From Desulfurellaceae bacterium (GTDB lineage: Bacteria > Desulfobacterota > Binatia > Bin18), in assembly GCA_021296095.1 (NCBI GenBank), contig JAGWBB010000030.1, positions 1-36,197 on the forward strand: 36,197 nucleotides of DNA, in the 5' to 3' direction. The position numbers and the translations under genes were made by a program. Below the pieces are notes generated by a model, which saw only the letters and a list, made by a program, of their open reading frames with translations, was not told where the DNA came from and did not search any database. Below, piece after piece: positions 4,444 to 33,494 of the stretch; position 1 is the first letter of the stretch, and every line of letters begins with the position of its first letter.

Positions 4444-5310
4444 ATGCAAACCATTAGCAAAGAGCATATTGTCCGGACGTTTGACGCCGATCACCCTGCG
4501 GCTGCCACAGTTAAGCCCGGGGAAGTATTTGTGATGGAAACCAACGACCGCTTTCGAGACTGGAACGAGGGCGGCGAGTGGCCCATGGAGCAGCTGACCG
4601 TCATGACCGGGCCGGTCTATGTTGAAGGCGTTCAGCCCGGCCAGGTGCTGGCCGTGGAGGTGTTGGACATCAAAGCCTCCCAGGGGTTTGGCTATGTGGT
4701 GGCAATTCCGGGCTTCGGCCTACTCAAAGACCAGGTCGAGTTTCGGAAAAAAGTCGTCCCGATTGAGGGCAACCGCATTCGCTACAGCGACACCCTGAGT
4801 CTGCCGTTCATACCCAACATCAGCAAAATTGGACTGGCTCCGGCCGAGGGCTCGCAGCCGAGCGGGGCGTGTGGGGATTTTGGCGGTCAGCTGAGCAACA
4901 GCCAGCTGGGAGCTGGCTCAACCGTGTTTTTGCCGGTGTTTGCCGAGGGCGGGCTACTAACCATCGAAGACGTGCACGCCAGGATGGGCGATGGCGAAGC
5001 CACCGCCTCGGCGGTGGAGATTGCGGCCACGGTGACGCTACGCTGTCAAATTGCGACCGAGCTGCCGCTCAGCCAGCCGATCGTTATCACCCAGGACGAG
5101 GTTCAGACCATGGGCAGCGGTGAGACGGCCGAGGCGGCGGCGCGGGCGGCTGTGGACGAGCTGGCCCGTCTGCTGGTCGAGCGGACCGAGGCCGATATGA
5201 CCGAGGCGGCGATACTGGCCAGCGTGGCGGCCGATCTGCGGATTTCCGAGATGGCCGGTAGCCCGTGTCATATTCGGGCGGCCATGAAGCGCGAGATTCT
5301 GGGCTTGTAG
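4444..5310 (+). CDS. Acetamidase/formamidase family protein
   Basis: A 288-residue protein of the FmdA/AmdA family, metal-dependent amidases that release ammonia from formamide, acetamide or related short amides. Family features are the N-terminal VKPGEVFVMETNDRF, the segment GPVYVEGVQPGQVLAVEVLDI (shown in parts: GPVYVEGVQPGQ), the central SGACGDFGG, and the DVHARMGDGEA loop that corresponds to the usual GD-x-HxxQGDGE metal/active-site loop, here with M in place of Q. Length is within the normal range of the shorter family members. The start has GGAAG 7 nt upstream. It is second in the operon with the HbpS-like gene. The dimethylformamidase-like gene on the opposite strand makes a formamide-directed role attractive, but substrate is not determined by sequence. 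Confidence 0.85.
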   Translation: MQTISKEHIVRTFDADHPAAATVKPGEVFVMETNDRFRDWNEGGEWPMEQLTVMTGPVYVEGVQPGQVLAVEVLDIKASQGFGYVVAIPGFGLLKDQVEFRKKVVPIEGNRIRYSDTLSLPFIPNISKIGLAPAEGSQPSGACGDFGGQLSNSQLGAGSTVFLPVFAEGGLLTIEDVHARMGDGEATASAVEIAATVTLRCQIATELPLSQPIVITQDEVQTMGSGETAEAAARAAVDELARLLVERTEADMTEAAILASVAADLRISEMAGSPCHIRAAMKREILGL

Positions 5311-19308: not shown

Positions 19309-20664
19309 ATGCAAACCATCACAGTCATTGGCGGTGGGCTGGCCGGCAGCGAAGCCGCGTGGCAAATCGCCCAATCCGGCCTGGCCGTGCGTTTGTACGA
19401 AATGCGGCCGGTGCGGCCGACCGCCGCCCACCACACGGACGGCTTTGCCGAGCTGGTGTGTTCCAACTCTCTGCGCAGCGCGTCGCTGACAACCGCAGTC
19501 GGACTGCTCAAACAGGAAATGCGCCACCTGGGCTCCTTGATTATGCGCGCGGCGGATGCCTCGCGGGTTCCCGCCGGCCAGGCCCTGGCCGTGGATCGGG
19601 AGGTGTTTTCGCGCACGGTGGGTCAGACGCTGAGCGGTCATCCGCTGATCGAGATCCGGCGCCAAGAGGTTGACCGCCTGCCGAGCGGCGTCACAGTCGT
19701 GGCCACCGGTCCCCTGACTTCGTCCGCCCTGTCGGCCCGCCTGCAGGCCCTGCTTGGTCGGGACTATCTGTATTTTTACGATGCCATCTCTCCCATCATT
19801 CAGGCCGACTCCATCAATCGGACGGTTGTGTTTCGGGCGTCTCGCTATGATCGTGGCGGTGACGACTATCTGAACTGCCCGCTCAGCCGGGACGAGTATG
19901 AGCGGCTCGTTGACGACATTGTGGCGGCCCGCAAGGTCGAGACCAAAGAGTTTGAGCGGGCGGTGTATTTTGAGGGCTGCCTGCCGATCGAGGAAATGGC
20001 CCGACGCGGCAGAGACACCCTGGCCTTTGGACCGCTGAAGCCGGTCGGCCTGAGCGACCCGCGCACGGGCAGTCGCCCCTATGCGGTTGTCCAGCTGCGC
20101 CAGGACGATCGAGCCGGCAGCCTGTGGGGTATGGTCGGCTTTCAGACCAAGATGAGCTACCCGGAACAGCGCCGGGTGTTTCGGACCATCCCGGGTCTGG
20201 AGGCGGCCGAGTTTGTGCGTCTCGGCAGCCTGCACCGCAACACCTTTATCGACTCCCCCCGACTGCTGAAACCGACCCTGCAGTTTCGGGACCGCGCCGA
20301 CCTGTTCTTTGCCGGCCAGATGGTCGGGGTAGAGGGCTATCTGGAGTCGGCCGCAGCCGGGCTGCTGGCGGGTCTGAACGCCGCCCGCTACGCCCGACAG
20401 GCACCGCTCCTGGTCGCCCCGGCGGCGACCGCCCTGGGCTCCCTGTTCACCTATGTCACCAGCAGCGAACGCCGCGAGTTTCAGCCCATGAACACCAACT
20501 ACGGCCTGTTTCCCCCCCTCTCGCGGCGCTTGCGGGGACGCGAAAAAAAGGCCGCCCTGGCCCAGCGGGCGCTGCACGACCTGGCCGCCTGGCAGACCGC
20601 CCATCACCTACCCGACGCGGCACCGGAGTCGGTCCCTCGCACCTCCCCTGTCGGAACCGCCTGA
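19309..20664 (+). CDS. trmFO: Methylenetetrahydrofolate-tRNA (uracil-5-)-methyltransferase
   Basis: A 451-residue folate- and FAD-dependent enzyme that makes 5-methyluridine at position 54 of tRNA. The N-terminal FAD-binding motif is [15 protein letters not shown]. Family signatures include [25 protein letters not shown] (key part FAELVCSNS, with the family's conserved cysteine), [36 protein letters not shown] and the C-terminal [16 protein letters not shown]. All are present, so the enzyme should be active. It uses methylenetetrahydrofolate rather than SAM. The gene is 83 nt after topA. The last 20 residues are variable. No clear ribosome site is seen, but the start matches the family. Confidence 0.96.
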
Positions 20665-27688: not shown

Positions 27689-28522
27689 ATGACACATCAG
27701 CTGGAGCGTGAAAAAACCACCGCCGTGGCCGCCGCCCAGGCGGCCGGGACGGTCATTCGGGCGGTGTATGAAACGAAATACCGCGTGGACTACAAACGTA
27801 ACGACAGCCCGGTCACGGTTGCCGACCGTCAGGCCAACCACCGCATCCACCAGATCATCCAGCACGCCTTTCCGCACGACGGCTGGCTGTCGGAAGAAAC
27901 CATCGACTCCCCGGACCGGCTGTCGAAACGCCGCGTGTGGGTTGTTGATCCGCTCGACGGGACCAAGGAGTTTATTGACAAAGTCCCCGAGTTTGCCGTC
28001 TCGATCGGCCTGATCGAGGACGGCCAGCCGCTGCTGGGCGTCATCTACTACCCGGCCCTGGACGAGTTGGTGTGGGCCGCGCGCGACCAGGGCGCCTGGC
28101 GCCGAACGGGTGACACGAGCGACACGCGGCTGCGCGTCAGCCCCACCGAGCGCCTGGCCGAGGCCACGGTGCTGTCCAGCCGCTCGGAGACAAAACGGGG
28201 TGAATGGCGGCCGTTTCAATCTCTTTTCCGCGCCCGGCCCGCAGGCGGGATGGCGCACAAGCTGGCCACCGTGGCCAAGGGCGAGGCCGATGCGACCTTT
28301 ACCCTGGTGCCCAAGAACGAGTGGGACCTGTGTGCGGGTGCCGTGCTGATCGAAGAGGCCGGCGGTCTGCTCACCACGCTGGGCGACAAGCCGGTGGTGT
28401 TCAACCAGGCCACCACCCTGCTGCAAGGGCTGGTGGCCAGCAACCGGCTCCTCCACCCCCAGCTCATGGCCGTGGTGACGCCCCGTCTGGGTCAGCGCCA
28501 CCGGGCGGAAACGCGGCGCTGA
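27689..28522 (+). CDS. Inositol-monophosphatase-family phosphatase, CysQ-like
   Basis: A 277-residue metal-dependent phosphatase. The family motifs are LSEET, VDPLDGTKEFID and NEWDLCAGAVLIEEAGG, with the two metal sites complete. The KEF residue after DGT and the SRSETKR loop favour the CysQ (3'(2'),5'-bisphosphate nucleotidase) branch, which removes the by-product PAP of sulfate assimilation and sulfotransfer. The start lies 5 nt after the preceding gene, so it is translated from the same message. Assignment to CysQ over inositol monophosphatase is by motif only. Confidence 0.85.
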   Translation: MTHQLEREKTTAVAAAQAAGTVIRAVYETKYRVDYKRNDSPVTVADRQANHRIHQIIQHAFPHDGWLSEETIDSPDRLSKRRVWVVDPLDGTKEFIDKVPEFAVSIGLIEDGQPLLGVIYYPALDELVWAARDQGAWRRTGDTSDTRLRVSPTERLAEATVLSSRSETKRGEWRPFQSLFRARPAGGMAHKLATVAKGEADATFTLVPKNEWDLCAGAVLIEEAGGLLTTLGDKPVVFNQATTLLQGLVASNRLLHPQLMAVVTPRLGQRHRAETRR

Positions 28523-28602: not shown

Positions 28603-28821
28603 GTGGCTCAACTCGCTGCCCTTTTTCAAAGCCGTCCCAAACCCCGCTGTCCGGCGTGCCACAAGTGGAACCGGGTGTATGTGACCGGCGGTTCGTTTCT
28701 GTCCGCGTGCGTCTACTGTGGCGCGGCGCTCGACCGACACCGGGCGCCAGCCTGGGGGATCGGGGTCATTCTGGTCGCCGGCGCGCTGGCCCTGGCGGCC
28801 ATTCCCCTCCTCGCCCGTTAG
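28603..28821 (+). CDS. Small zinc-ribbon, single-membrane-span protein
   Basis: A 72-residue ORF starting with GTG behind GGTGAGG. It has a zinc ribbon C-P-A-C (32-35 in PRCPACHKW) and C-V-Y-C, then a C-terminal hydrophobic helix WGIGVILVAGALALAAIPLL, consistent with a one-span membrane protein with a cytoplasmic zinc knuckle. I know no named family. Its stop overlaps the stop of the convergent rhodanese gene by 4 bases. Codon use agrees with its neighbours, which supports coding. Confidence 0.6.
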   Translation: MAQLAALFQSRPKPRCPACHKWNRVYVTGGSFLSACVYCGAALDRHRAPAWGIGVILVAGALALAAIPLLAR

Positions 28822-29639
28822 TCCTTTTCGAGCGGCAAATCTTCCCGGTTGCCCCACTCGGCCCACGAGGCGTCATAGTTGCGGACCGCGTCAAAACCGA
28901 TTAACCGCAGGGTGAAGAGTCCGTGCGCCGCACGGATACCCCCCTGTCAATAGGTGACGACTTGTGACTCGGGCGTGATGCCAGCCTCGGCAAACATGGC
29001 CCGTAGCTCGGCCGCAGGTTTGAACTTCTTGGTCTGGTCGTCAACATAGTTGAGCCACTCCAGGTGTACGGCACCGGGGATACGTCCCCCCCGCTTTGTG
29101 CCCCGTGCGTTCTGCCCGCTCCACTCGCCGTCAGAGCGCACGTCGAGCAGCACCCGGTCGGTCTGACCGATTGAGTCCCGGATATACTCCCAGCGAGCGA
29201 TCAGCTCCTCATTCACCTGGGGGCTGAAGCGGGCCGCAGCCCGTCTGGCCGGCGCGTTGGTCAGCGGCCGTTCCTCGGCCAGCCAGGCGTCCCAACCGCC
29301 GTTCAGCACCGCAGCTCGGGTGTGACCATAATAGTTGAGCGCCCACCACAGACGGGTAGCGTACAGCCCGCTGAACCCGTCATAGGCGATGACCAGGGTG
29401 TCGTCCCCGATCCCCAGCCCGCCCATGGTCTCGGCAAACTGTTCGGGTCCCATGATATGCGGCGCGCCCTCTTTTTCCTTGAGATAGTGGTGCCCACGAA
29501 ACGTCACCGCCCCGGGAATATGTGCCCGGCGGTAGGCCTCACGGTTATCGCAGTCGACGATGCATACGTCTTGGAGATGCTCGGCCAGCCAGTCGGTCTC
29601 GACCAGCATCTCCGGTCGGCTATAGTTGTGGTCTGCCAT
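28818..29639 (-). CDS. Two-domain rhodanese, apparent selenoprotein (TGA read as Sec231)
   Basis: A thiosulfate:acceptor sulfurtransferase-type protein of 273 residues if one TGA (28947-28949) is read through. The N-terminal domain (VCIVDCDNREAYRRAHIPGAV, VIAYDGFSGLYATRLWW) is the usual inactive rhodanese half. The C-terminal domain (VLLDVRSDGEWSG, HLEWLNYV) runs to VVTY, TGA, QGGIRAAHGLF, where the TGA replaces the catalytic cysteine of the CxxGxRA loop. Beyond it 42 more residues remain conserved, including YDASWAEWGNR, typical of the family end, up to TAA. A SECIS-like hairpin follows. I read this as selenocysteine; a nonsense mutation is the alternative. Start: AAGGAG upstream of ATG 29639. 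It is third in an operon with the LLM and epimerase genes. Confidence 0.85.
28908..28949 (-). promoter_or_regulatory. Candidate bacterial SECIS element
   Basis: Directly after the TGA, CCGTGC (28935-28930) and GCACGG (28926-28921) form a perfect 6-bp stem with loop GGC (28929-28927). The loop begins 17 nt past the TGA and starts with G. That meets the known bSECIS constraints of a hairpin loop about 16-37 nt after UGA with a G among the first loop positions. CAGGG (28946-28942) and CCCTG (28912-28908) can close an outer stem. Because the stem overlaps the coding sequence for GIRAAHG, both protein and RNA conservation act on it. Confidence 0.75.
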
Positions 29640-29701: not shown

Positions 29702-30751
29702 CTAATAATGGGCGATAATCTCCTGGGCAAACTCAACAATACTCTCCTCGACATAGCCCCAGGGGGGCGAGATGACCATCTGGCTCAGCCCGGCCGCCTC
29801 AAGCTGCCTGATACGGGCAATGATCTCCTCCCGCGTTCCGGTCAGGCTCATCGTACTGACCACCTCGGGGGTAATGAACTGCTCTTCGCCGGGATGCAGG
29901 AAGCGCGAGTGGGTAGCGTGAATCTCCTGCCAGCGCTCGTCCAGATAGTCCCGGTAGGCCGGGGTCAGAAAAGCCTGCATAGAGGCCGGGGCGGACTTAC
30001 CGTGTTTGACCGCCTCGTAACCGAAGTGCAGACCGACCGCGATGCGCGGCCCGACCCGAGCGATGACCCGCGGGCTGTCCAGAGCCTCGCCGGGTCGCAC
30101 GACGCACGACACGCCGACGGTAACGACCGGCCAGGCCGCGCCGGCGGCGACTGCTCGCTGCCCCTGAGCCGCGCCGGCCAGGGTGGCGCGCAGCGTGTCC
30201 GCAGACAAGACACTGATGGTGATGATACCATCGCCCAGCTCGCCGGCCACGGCCAGCGCCTGGGGCGCGGCGGCGGCCACATAGATGGGGATTGGATCGC
30301 GGACGTTGACATAGCCGTGCTCCAGGTCAAAAAAGCGCACCGTGCGGGTCCGGCTGCGCTCGTGATAGTCAACGCTGCGACCGGCCAGCAGGCTCCGACA
30401 TACCTCGATCGTGTGGCGGAAGTCGTCGAGTCGGGCCGGCGGCATGCCCATCGCCCGCCAGGCGGTGTGACCGGTGCCCAGCCCCAGGATGAGGCGGCCG
30501 GGCGCCAGCTGGTTGATGCTGGCGATCGAGTGGGCGATGACCGGCGCAATCCGCGTCCCGGCAATGGCCACCGCCGTGCCCAGGCGGATCGTCGTGGTAT
30601 GCTCGGCCGCCAGGGCCAGGCAGGCGTACACGTCGGACGCCAGCATCTGGCTGTCGATAAACCAGGCGTGCGAGAAGCCCATCTGCTCGGCCAGCATCGC
30701 GTGCTTCCAGCTGCGCTGAATATGGGTTTGAAAACTGACCCCAAAGTCCAT
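29702..30751 (-). CDS. LLM-class (F420/flavin-dependent) oxidoreductase
   Basis: A 349-residue luciferase-like monooxygenase-family protein, a TIM barrel using F420 or FMN. The opening VSFQTHIQRSWKHAMLAEQMGF, the strand IRLGTAVAIAGTR and the motif RLILGLGTGHTAWRAMGMPP are characteristic. IPIYVAAAAPQALAVAGELGDGII is the late barrel strand. ATG 30751 follows AGGGGAAC. The frame is open for 20 more codons to 30811 but without family similarity. It lies 19 nt after the epimerase gene and 62 nt before the rhodanese gene on the same strand. Substrate is unknown. Confidence 0.88.
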   Translation of the reverse strand: MDFGVSFQTHIQRSWKHAMLAEQMGFSHAWFIDSQMLASDVYACLALAAEHTTTIRLGTAVAIAGTRIAPVIAHSIASINQLAPGRLILGLGTGHTAWRAMGMPPARLDDFRHTIEVCRSLLAGRSVDYHERSRTRTVRFFDLEHGYVNVRDPIPIYVAAAAPQALAVAGELGDGIITISVLSADTLRATLAGAAQGQRAVAAGAAWPVVTVGVSCVVRPGEALDSPRVIARVGPRIAVGLHFGYEAVKHGKSAPASMQAFLTPAYRDYLDERWQEIHATHSRFLHPGEEQFITPEVVSTMSLTGTREEIIARIRQLEAAGLSQMVISPPWGYVEESIVEFAQEIIAHY

Positions 30752-30770
30752 GCCGTTCCCCTCGCGCGGC

Positions 30771-31733
30771 CTAGCGCGGCTCCAGGGGCAGACCCTCGCG
30801 CCGGCGGACATCGTTCAGATAGGCGACAATCCCCTCCTCGACCGTATAGCGGGGCGTAAAGCCCAACTCGTCGCGCAGCCGGTTGGTGTTGAACAGCGAA
30901 GTCATCACAAACGGTTTGTCGCTGACCGAGATAGCGGCGCCGGGCAGGATCTGGCGCAGATAGGCGGTGATCTCGCCCGTTTTGCGGCTCGGCCCGCTCA
31001 TATTGAAGACACGGTGAGGAGGGTTCTGAACCTGGTAGGCCAGCCGGAAGACCTCAGCGGCGTCCGCCACATACAGCCAGTCCGCAATCTGTTCGTCGGG
31101 CGGCATGACGACCGGCTGGCCGAGCAGGGCCAGCTCGGGCAGGACCATGAAGTGATCCCCGGCCGCGCCACGGCGCTGGCCGCGCCCCTCACCAAACACC
31201 GAGGTTGGCCGAATCCCGACCGGCTCCAGGCCGTAGGCGCTGGCGTAATACTCGGCCGTGTGCTCATTGAACAGCTTGCACGCGCCGTACAGGCCACCCG
31301 GATTATCGGCGTCGGGATTGGGTGGGGCGTCTTCGTCGAGGGCCGGGCCGCTCAGCGTCGTGCGCATCGGATACACGGCCACCGAACTCATGTACACCAC
31401 CCGCTTGAGACCGCTCAGGCGGGCCGCCTCAAAGACGTTGGTCGTGCCGATGCAGTTGACGTTGATCGACGGCAGCGGGTTGCGCATTCCTCCGGTTCCC
31501 AGATAATAGGCCAGATGGACAATGCCCTCGACATCGTTGGATCGGATGGCATCCATGAGCGCCGTCGGTTCCATCACGTCGCCCTGGATGATCTTGATCT
31601 GATCGGCCACATCGGCCACCGCCCGCCGGTTGGGCACCGCGTCGAAAATCACCACTCGCTCGCCGTGCTGCAGCAAGTGGCGGGTTAGATGGCGGCCCAG
31701 AAATCCGGTTCCGCCCGTAATCAGAATCGCCAT
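30771..31733 (-). CDS. NAD-dependent epimerase/dehydratase (extended SDR)
   Basis: A 320-residue extended short-chain dehydrogenase/reductase. Residues 2-13 hold the nucleotide motif ILITGGTGFLGRHL. The catalytic S-x-x and Y-x3-K are in MSSVAVYP and YGACKLF, and IRPTSVFGEGR and ADWLYVADAAEV are typical later strands. These enzymes oxidise, epimerise or dehydrate nucleotide sugars or related carbonyl substrates. The start at 31733 is set by AGGAGG 7 nt upstream. It is first in the minus-strand run and divergent from the GH25 gene with 68 nt between. Confidence 0.88.
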   Translation of the reverse strand: MAILITGGTGFLGRHLTRHLLQHGERVVIFDAVPNRRAVADVADQIKIIQGDVMEPTALMDAIRSNDVEGIVHLAYYLGTGGMRNPLPSINVNCIGTTNVFEAARLSGLKRVVYMSSVAVYPMRTTLSGPALDEDAPPNPDADNPGGLYGACKLFNEHTAEYYASAYGLEPVGIRPTSVFGEGRGQRRGAAGDHFMVLPELALLGQPVVMPPDEQIADWLYVADAAEVFRLAYQVQNPPHRVFNMSGPSRKTGEITAYLRQILPGAAISVSDKPFVMTSLFNTNRLRDELGFTPRYTVEEGIVAYLNDVRRREGLPLEPR

Positions 31734-31801
31734 GGTTTTCTCCTCCTTTGCATTGCTGCTCTTTACCACAGCCGGTCCCCGGTCGGCCAGCGTCAGGTGT
31801 C

Positions 31802-32665
31802 ATGGGCAAGTGGCGTCGCGTAGGGGCTGAGCGCAACAGCCCGACCGGATCGGGCCTGGCCCGGCCTGCGCTGCGCGTGCTGTTGATAGGGGTCGGCGGC
31901 TTGGCCTTGGTCGGCACGCTGCTGAGCGGCGGCGCGTGGCTCTATCTGACCGGGGTGTGGATCCCGAATACGCCGAGCCGGGCCGCCTATCCCATCCGCG
32001 GGCTCGATGTCTCCCATCACCAGGGCCGCATCGACTGGCCGACGGTCGTCGCAACCGGGGTGGACTTCGTGTACATGAAAGCCACCGAGGGGGGCGACTG
32101 GATCGACCGCCAGTTTGTCCGCAACTGGACCGAAACGGGCCGGCTGGGTCTCAGACGCGGCGCCTACCATTTCTTCACCCTGCGCACGCCCGGCGCAAAA
32201 CAGGCCGCCCACTTTGTGGCCACCGTTCCTCACGAGGCCGCAGCCCTGCCCCCGGCGGTCGATCTCGAGTTCAGCGGCAACTCAAAGGCACGCCCCACGC
32301 CGGACCAGTTCCGACGCGAACTGGAGGCGTTTCTGGACCGTCTCGAACAGGCGTATCAGACCCGACCCGTAATCTACACCACGTACGATTTTCACGACGC
32401 CTATCTCCAGGGGCTGCCGCTCGAGCGGATATGGGTCAGAGAGGTGCTGATGGCACCGCGCGGCGTCTTCCACAACCGCTGGACCTTTTGGCAGTACAGT
32501 GCTAGGGGCAGGGTGGCCGGTATCAGCGGCCGGGTTGACCTGAACGTCTTTGCCGGTAATCGACACGCCTTTGACGCCCTCATACACCAGCCATACGCAC
32601 CCGGGGAGAAAGGAAGCGGCTATGAAATTCGGTATCGTTCCCATCAACCTGGGGGAGTTCATTGA
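31802..32665 (+). CDS. Membrane-anchored GH25 muramidase
   Basis: A 287-residue lysozyme of glycosyl hydrolase family 25, which cuts the MurNAc-GlcNAc bond of peptidoglycan. One membrane helix (residues about 25-49) anchors the protein, with the catalytic domain outside. GLDVSHHQGRIDW contains D69, FVYMKATEGGDW is the second conserved strand, and VDLEF has D154 and E156, the expected acidic pair. FWQYSARGRVAGISGRVDLN is the usual last strand. The final 15 residues overlap the LLM gene by 44 nt and are outside the domain. Confidence 0.88.
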   Translation: MGKWRRVGAERNSPTGSGLARPALRVLLIGVGGLALVGTLLSGGAWLYLTGVWIPNTPSRAAYPIRGLDVSHHQGRIDWPTVVATGVDFVYMKATEGGDWIDRQFVRNWTETGRLGLRRGAYHFFTLRTPGAKQAAHFVATVPHEAAALPPAVDLEFSGNSKARPTPDQFRRELEAFLDRLEQAYQTRPVIYTTYDFHDAYLQGLPLERIWVREVLMAPRGVFHNRWTFWQYSARGRVAGISGRVDLNVFAGNRHAFDALIHQPYAPGEKGSGYEIRYRSHQPGGVH

Positions 32666-33494
32666 CCCGCTGGTTGTGATTCCATTTGTCCAAAAGGCCG
32701 AGCGGCTCGGCTATGAGTCGGTCTGGACGGCCGAGCACGTCATCATCCCCAAACGCTACGACTCGGTGTATCCCTACAACCCCAGCGGCAAAGTTCCGTT
32801 TCAGCCCGATGCCGCAATCATCGACCCGCTGGTCGCCCTGACCTTTATCGCCGCAGCCACTACCCGCCTGCGGCTCGGCACCGGGGTCAATATCCTGCCC
32901 CAGACCAATCCCCTGTACCTGGCCAAGTGGGCCTCGTCGATCGATCACCTGTCCCAGGGCCGCCTGATGCTCGGCCTGGGCATCGGCTGGCTGCAAGAAG
33001 AGTTTACCGCCATTGGCGTCCCGTTTGCGCGGCGCGGCAAACGCTCGGACGAGTACCTGGCCGCCCTCAAGGCCGTCTGGAGCGGTCAAGAGGTCGATTT
33101 TCAGGGCGAATTCGTTCGCTGGCAGGGCTTTCAGATGCGACCCGCTCCAGCCCAGGCCGGCGGCGTGCCGCTGGTCATCGGCGGGGTGAGCGCGCCCGCC
33201 ATCCGACGCACCGTGCGGTACGGCAACGGCTGGTATGTGATCGGCAAGGATCTGGACGAGTACCGGACGCATATGCGGGCGCTGGACGACGAGTGTCGCC
33301 GTCAGGGTCGCAATCGGGCCGAACTCGAAATCACCGCCTACTGGGACTACTACCGCCAGGGCGCCGACAGCCTGTCGGCCTACCAGGAGCTGGGGGTCGA
33401 CCGTCTGTTGATCAACGTCCGGGCCCTGCGCCACGACAGCGCCGACGCGGCCCTGGAGCGGTTTGCCGATGAGGTGATCGCCAGACACGGCTAG
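32622..33494 (+). CDS. LLM-class F420-dependent oxidoreductase
   Basis: A 290-residue luciferase-like oxidoreductase of the F420-associated type. The opening strand VPINLGEFIDP and WTAEHVIIPKRYDS are the usual start, followed by RLRLGTGVNILPQTNPL, SQGRLMLGLGIGWLQEEF and PLVIGGVSAPAIRRTVRYGNGW. This matches TIGR-type F420 probable oxidoreductases more than bacterial luciferase. AAAGGAAG precedes ATG 32622, which lies within the end of the GH25 gene. It is shorter than and distinct from the LLM protein at 29702-30751. Substrate is unknown. Confidence 0.88.
   Translation: MKFGIVPINLGEFIDPLVVIPFVQKAERLGYESVWTAEHVIIPKRYDSVYPYNPSGKVPFQPDAAIIDPLVALTFIAAATTRLRLGTGVNILPQTNPLYLAKWASSIDHLSQGRLMLGLGIGWLQEEFTAIGVPFARRGKRSDEYLAALKAVWSGQEVDFQGEFVRWQGFQMRPAPAQAGGVPLVIGGVSAPAIRRTVRYGNGWYVIGKDLDEYRTHMRALDDECRRQGRNRAELEITAYWDYYRQGADSLSAYQELGVDRLLINVRALRHDSADAALERFADEVIARHG

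Follow-up and report, generated by a model that had tools for sequence, protein, structure and literature searches.

When a rhodanese gene carries a TGA where the codon for its catalytic cysteine is expected, is the gene dead, or does the TGA encode selenocysteine? This question is raised by a 36,197-nt stretch of DNA (the window) from a Candidatus Binatia MAG (4.3 Mb, 96.9% complete, 3.5% contamination). A minus-strand frame in the window runs from an ATG at 29639 to a TAA ending at 28818 and contains a single in-frame TGA, at 28947–28949 (codon 231). The TGA and the TAA (codon 274) are separated by 42 codons, and the read-through product is 273 residues long with selenocysteine (Sec, U) at residue 231. 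The coordinates of the frame and of the TGA, and the length of the product, are the same as those given in an earlier, sequence-only reading of this DNA. As that reading expected, mechanical ORF calling stops at the TGA (28947–29639, minus strand), and ordinary gene calling would thus give a 230-aa fragment without the active site. Gene structure, SECIS element, Sec machinery, conservation, and fold were computed here, and together they make it almost certain that UGA 231 is read as selenocysteine in a two-domain rhodanese of the SseA/COG2897 type (28818–29639, minus strand). Among named records, Candidatus Binatota isolate CO36406bin_19 comes closest, with a rhodanese protein 97% identical to this one.

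The read-through protein has the domains and the fold of a two-domain rhodanese. Pfam Rhodanese (PF00581) matches it twice (E 1e-33), and its phmmer alignments with two-domain rhodaneses extend over the full length. There, residue 231 corresponds to the loop cysteine of 1UAR (in YCRIAERSSH), confirming that the TGA falls at the catalytic-cysteine site of the rhodanese loop; the active-site loop codons, U-Q-G-G-I-R-A, occupy 28929–28949 on the minus strand. The AlphaFold2 model (mean pLDDT of 94.9) has 1UAR, the rhodanese of T. thermophilus, as its best PDB match (TM 0.92), with D87 in domain 1 and U231 in C-terminal domain 2. Sequence and model together identify the predicted protein as a canonical two-domain sulfurtransferase in which U231 replaces the catalytic Cys. 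By homology, the C-terminal domain would be catalytic and the N-terminal domain, with Asp87 at the equivalent place, would not. The score against the 3-mercaptopyruvate sulfurtransferase equivalog NF008557 is 145.8 bits versus a curated cut-off of 250, and the protein is a relative rather than a member of that equivalog.

The machinery for selenocysteine is encoded in the same genome. We found selA (579 bits), selB (383 bits), and selD (385 bits), as well as a tRNA-Sec gene (selC) with anticodon TCA that lies 51 bp from selA. The sequence-only reading had named these four genes as a check and had tied its case to selB and selC in particular; all four are present. The gene encoding SelD itself contains a UGA and is located just downstream of selB (locus L008, 1501–2436, contig C46). 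Across genomes with the Sec-rhodanese, selB was found in 15 of 16 of the source's family (the remaining genome is 84% complete), in 6 of 6 of a second Binatia family, and in 13 of 15 Chloroflexota, where the two genomes without selB are small (1.4 and 1.6 Mb).

The TGA is conserved far beyond the window. Independent assemblies contribute 37 genes with TGA in the active-site column, at identities that go down to 44%. Retention is complete in the 16 searched genomes of the source's own Binatia family, and 6 genomes from a second family in the class and 15 Chloroflexota genes, mostly of Dehalococcoidia/SAR202, have the TGA too. All non-TGA homologues near 40% identity or above have a Cys codon (TGC or TGT), and the nearest of these, from three further genomes in the class, have TGC and are 50–53% identical. 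TAA and TAG are absent from the column among the homologues checked. Alignment of the region, which the earlier reading had suggested, thus yields TGA or Cys at this position in all close homologues. Of the loci scored, three distant homologues of ∼31–34% identity (L125, L128, and L129) depart from this pattern; one has Ser and two have Gly in the column, and they are possibly inactive paralogues. One uncultured Dehalococcoidia locus (L081, 3974–5800) has two tandem Sec-rhodanese genes, with TGA at 4721 and 5685, and each has its own UGA and its own downstream hairpin. A 72% identical Sec-rhodanese occurs in a MAG titled Klebsiella pneumoniae (L079, CAMBFS010000120.1); the name of this record looks wrong. 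Among plasmid records, only relatives of less than 60% identity were found.

A quick protein tree of these genes requires four changes between Sec and Cys. So few changes imply a rare switch, and, as judged from the sequences, Sec looks like an old state of the rhodanese. In the same tree, the second Binatia family is nested among genes of Chloroflexota, which, with SH-aLRT support only, suggests transfer of the gene between the two phyla. A lone Chloroflexota Sec gene (L095), with a hairpin maintained by compensation, is far from the main Sec clade in identity (44%); it may have gained Sec independently or be a long branch that is wrongly placed. Loss of SelB was considered as a general reason for the Cys versions and rejected because selB is still present in Cys-bearing Binatia (G072, G099, and G106) and in a Cys-bearing member of Chloroflexota (G128).

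Immediately downstream of the UGA is a bacterial SECIS element. Its upper hairpin, UCCGUGC-GGC-GCACGGA (28920–28936, minus strand), has a 7-bp stem and a 3-nt GGC loop located 17 nt past the UGA. With a weaker lower stem (alignment columns 5–11 with 35–41), the full element spans 28909–28945 on the same strand. The published model of bacterial SECIS elements specifies a loop of 3–9 nt with a G in the first two loop positions, a stem of 4–16 bp, and a spacing of 16–37 nt (PMC13188914), and the loop, stem, and spacing in the window are within these limits. An Rfam search of the whole window gave no match. Across genes, an average of 6.8 of the 7 pairs form in the 37 Sec genes versus 2.8 of 7 in 10 Cys homologues, and synonymous re-coding of the window's own peptide produces all 7 pairs in only ∼1.5% of draws. 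Pairs also change in a compensatory manner. In L067 and L071, a G-C pair is replaced by U-A, with two simultaneous residue changes (Ala to Ser and His to Asn), and in L095, a C-G pair is replaced by G-C. No shuffle reached the covariation score of the SECIS element, and controls with partners slid were far below it. In the lower stem, 86% of cells are paired over the family and one pair changes from C-G to U-A. Among 21 Binatia Sec genes, synonymous divergence has its gene-wide minimum at the hairpin codons (0.21–0.23), compared with 0.57 upstream and 0.59 after the hairpin. After the UGA of this genome's SelD gene comes another 7-bp stem, two of whose pairs are G-U; it too has a GGC loop and a spacing of 17 nt, a likeness expected if one SelB reads both hairpins.

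These patterns allow the alternatives to selenocysteine to be weighed. If the TGA were a real stop, whether in a pseudogene or through a sequencing or assembly error, the gene would be dead, and a 230-aa product lacking the active-site loop is indeed what a nonsense mutant would leave. Such an origin does not account for the same TGA in independent assemblies of genes as little as 44% identical, nor for the sequence that follows. No frameshift or other type of stop occurs at the site, and the region past the TGA is under purifying selection: a same-genus pair has zero amino-acid changes after the TGA at a pS of 0.16, although dN/dS values between genera are rough since synonymous sites are near saturation. 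The decay beyond the TGA that the sequence-only reading had asked about in relatives is therefore not seen, the conservation data refute a pseudogene or error, and we give this account practically no credence. Purifying selection on the downstream frame would likewise be expected if the UGA were decoded as another residue, through near-cognate read-through or a reassigned code in which UGA is Trp. Yet other genes of this genome use TGA as a normal stop, among them a GidA-family gene (19309–20664) and an inositol-phosphatase-family gene (27689–28522). Moreover, in close homologues the column alternates with Cys codons only and never with Trp, and the genome encodes the complete Sec machinery together with a conserved SECIS element of a kind that is gone where Cys replaces UGA. 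Decoding as a residue other than Sec is highly improbable. Homologue codons, SECIS, selection, and TGA stops elsewhere thus lead us to reject pseudogene, sequencing error, code reassignment, and near-cognate read-through. The earlier preference for selenocysteine over a dead gene is upheld by the Sec machinery, the conserved TGA, purifying selection, and a covarying SECIS. The gene has the genomic attributes of a bacterial selenoprotein: SelA, SelB, SelD, and tRNA-Sec(UCA) are encoded in its genome, and its UGA aligns with Cys and is conserved in other genomes.

Under the selenocysteine reading, a ribosome would arrive at UGA 231, SelB with Sec-tRNA(Sec) would bind the hairpin 17 nt downstream, and the SelB-bound complex would insert selenocysteine and let translation run on until the TAA (codon 274). 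The sequence predicts a functional selenoprotein, a sulfurtransferase of the two-domain rhodanese fold with the loop U-Q-G-G-I-R-A. Its sulfur-transfer chemistry is inferred from Cys homologues. Most likely, the selenolate of U231 would accept a sulfane sulfur (thiosulfate, 3-mercaptopyruvate, or a persulfide could be the donor), form an enzyme-Se-S(-) intermediate, and hand the sulfur to a nucleophilic acceptor (a thiol, thioredoxin, or cyanide). Two variants of this account concern what is made and what is carried. UGA-Sec decoding generally competes with release factor, and both the 230-aa form and the Sec form could matter, in a ratio set by selenium supply; the shorter form would have no catalytic loop, and we consider a role for it doubtful. 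Rhodaneses can also carry selenium, as perselenide, and the enzyme could be a selenotransferase that feeds SelD rather than a sulfurtransferase. This role is quite unlikely given that the rhodanese is unlinked to selA, selB, selC, and selD, which are on other contigs, and that many selB-positive relatives have no close rhodanese homologue.

Genes upstream of the selenocysteine-containing sulfurtransferase are possible operon partners. A luciferase-like monooxygenase (29702–30811, minus strand; PF00296, E 4e-39) has counterparts of 62–65% identity in the rhodanese neighbourhood at 6 other Binatia loci, and an NAD-dependent epimerase/dehydratase family protein (30771–31769, minus strand; PF01370, E 6e-45) is 77–78% identical to neighbours in 5 other Binatia loci. 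In L057, a putative enoyl-CoA-hydratase-like ORF, named from sequence, stands between. A second luciferase-like monooxygenase in the window (32550–33494, plus strand) is close to the one upstream of the rhodanese. This neighbourhood of monooxygenase and epimerase/dehydratase is only a lead to function. A dedicated selenolate sulfurtransferase could act in a pathway with these conserved neighbours, using sulfane sulfur or sulfite-type products from flavin-dependent organosulfur cleavage; this is a speculative and improbable proposal, and we know of no earlier description of selenium use in such a pathway.

In all searched genomes of its Binatia family, the gene has been retained and is under selection as a selenoprotein. 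The Sec and Cys genes form a clean set of rhodanese pairs for measuring why selenium is preferred in sulfur transfer, and SECIS elements with compensatory changes could help in studies of how SelB recognizes RNA outside Enterobacteria. Among the papers searched, none was found that discusses selenoproteins of Binatota; the one that names both Binatota and selenocysteine does so only in citing a reference, and a search on SAR202 found nothing on the point by title and abstract.

Among the nearest known counterparts of the window protein are two-domain thiosulfate/3-mercaptopyruvate sulfurtransferases. T. thermophilus 1UAR, M. tuberculosis CysA2, CysA3, and SseA, and bovine rhodanese likewise have two rhodanese domains, with folds matching at TM 0.86–0.92, and have the active loop in the C-terminal domain. 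They differ in having a catalytic Cys where the window protein is predicted to have Sec, and the loop is UQGGIRA in the window protein compared with CRIAERS in 1UAR.

Sec-containing rhodaneses had been reported, as the earlier reading stated, and the two-domain COG2897 type is itself among them. In 2005, Sargasso Sea data led to the prediction of a COG2897 "rhodanase-related sulfurtransferase" that contains Sec and has a SECIS (PMC1088965). Global Ocean Sampling data again included a Sec "rhodanase-related sulfurtransferase" in 2008 (PMC2398784), and the family is listed in a 2022 review (PMC9312934); a 2026 review has the same family as form 4, with the motif UxxG (PMC13188914). The window gene shares with the Sargasso Sea family a Sec in a COG2897 rhodanese and a bacterial SECIS directly downstream, and its U-Q-G-G agrees with form 4, to which we liken it by motif and description. 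The other forms in the 2026 review (1, 2, 3, and 5, including NF041203 with CxU and TsoB, NF045694) also have a rhodanese domain with Sec. Forms 1 and 3 have other motifs, forms 2 and 3 have accessions that the 2022 review assigns to COG0607, and form 5 is a rhodanese/DsbD-like fusion, unlike the window gene. NF041203 scores 30.7 bits against the window protein, with a cut-off of 115. Sec-containing COG2897 (SseA-type) rhodaneses are therefore a kind already known. The Sargasso Sea family was first described from marine metagenome sequences, whereas the window gene is in Binatia genomes with Sec machinery, and what is added here is its fixed presence in Binatia, the covariation of its SECIS, and the history of its Sec and Cys states.
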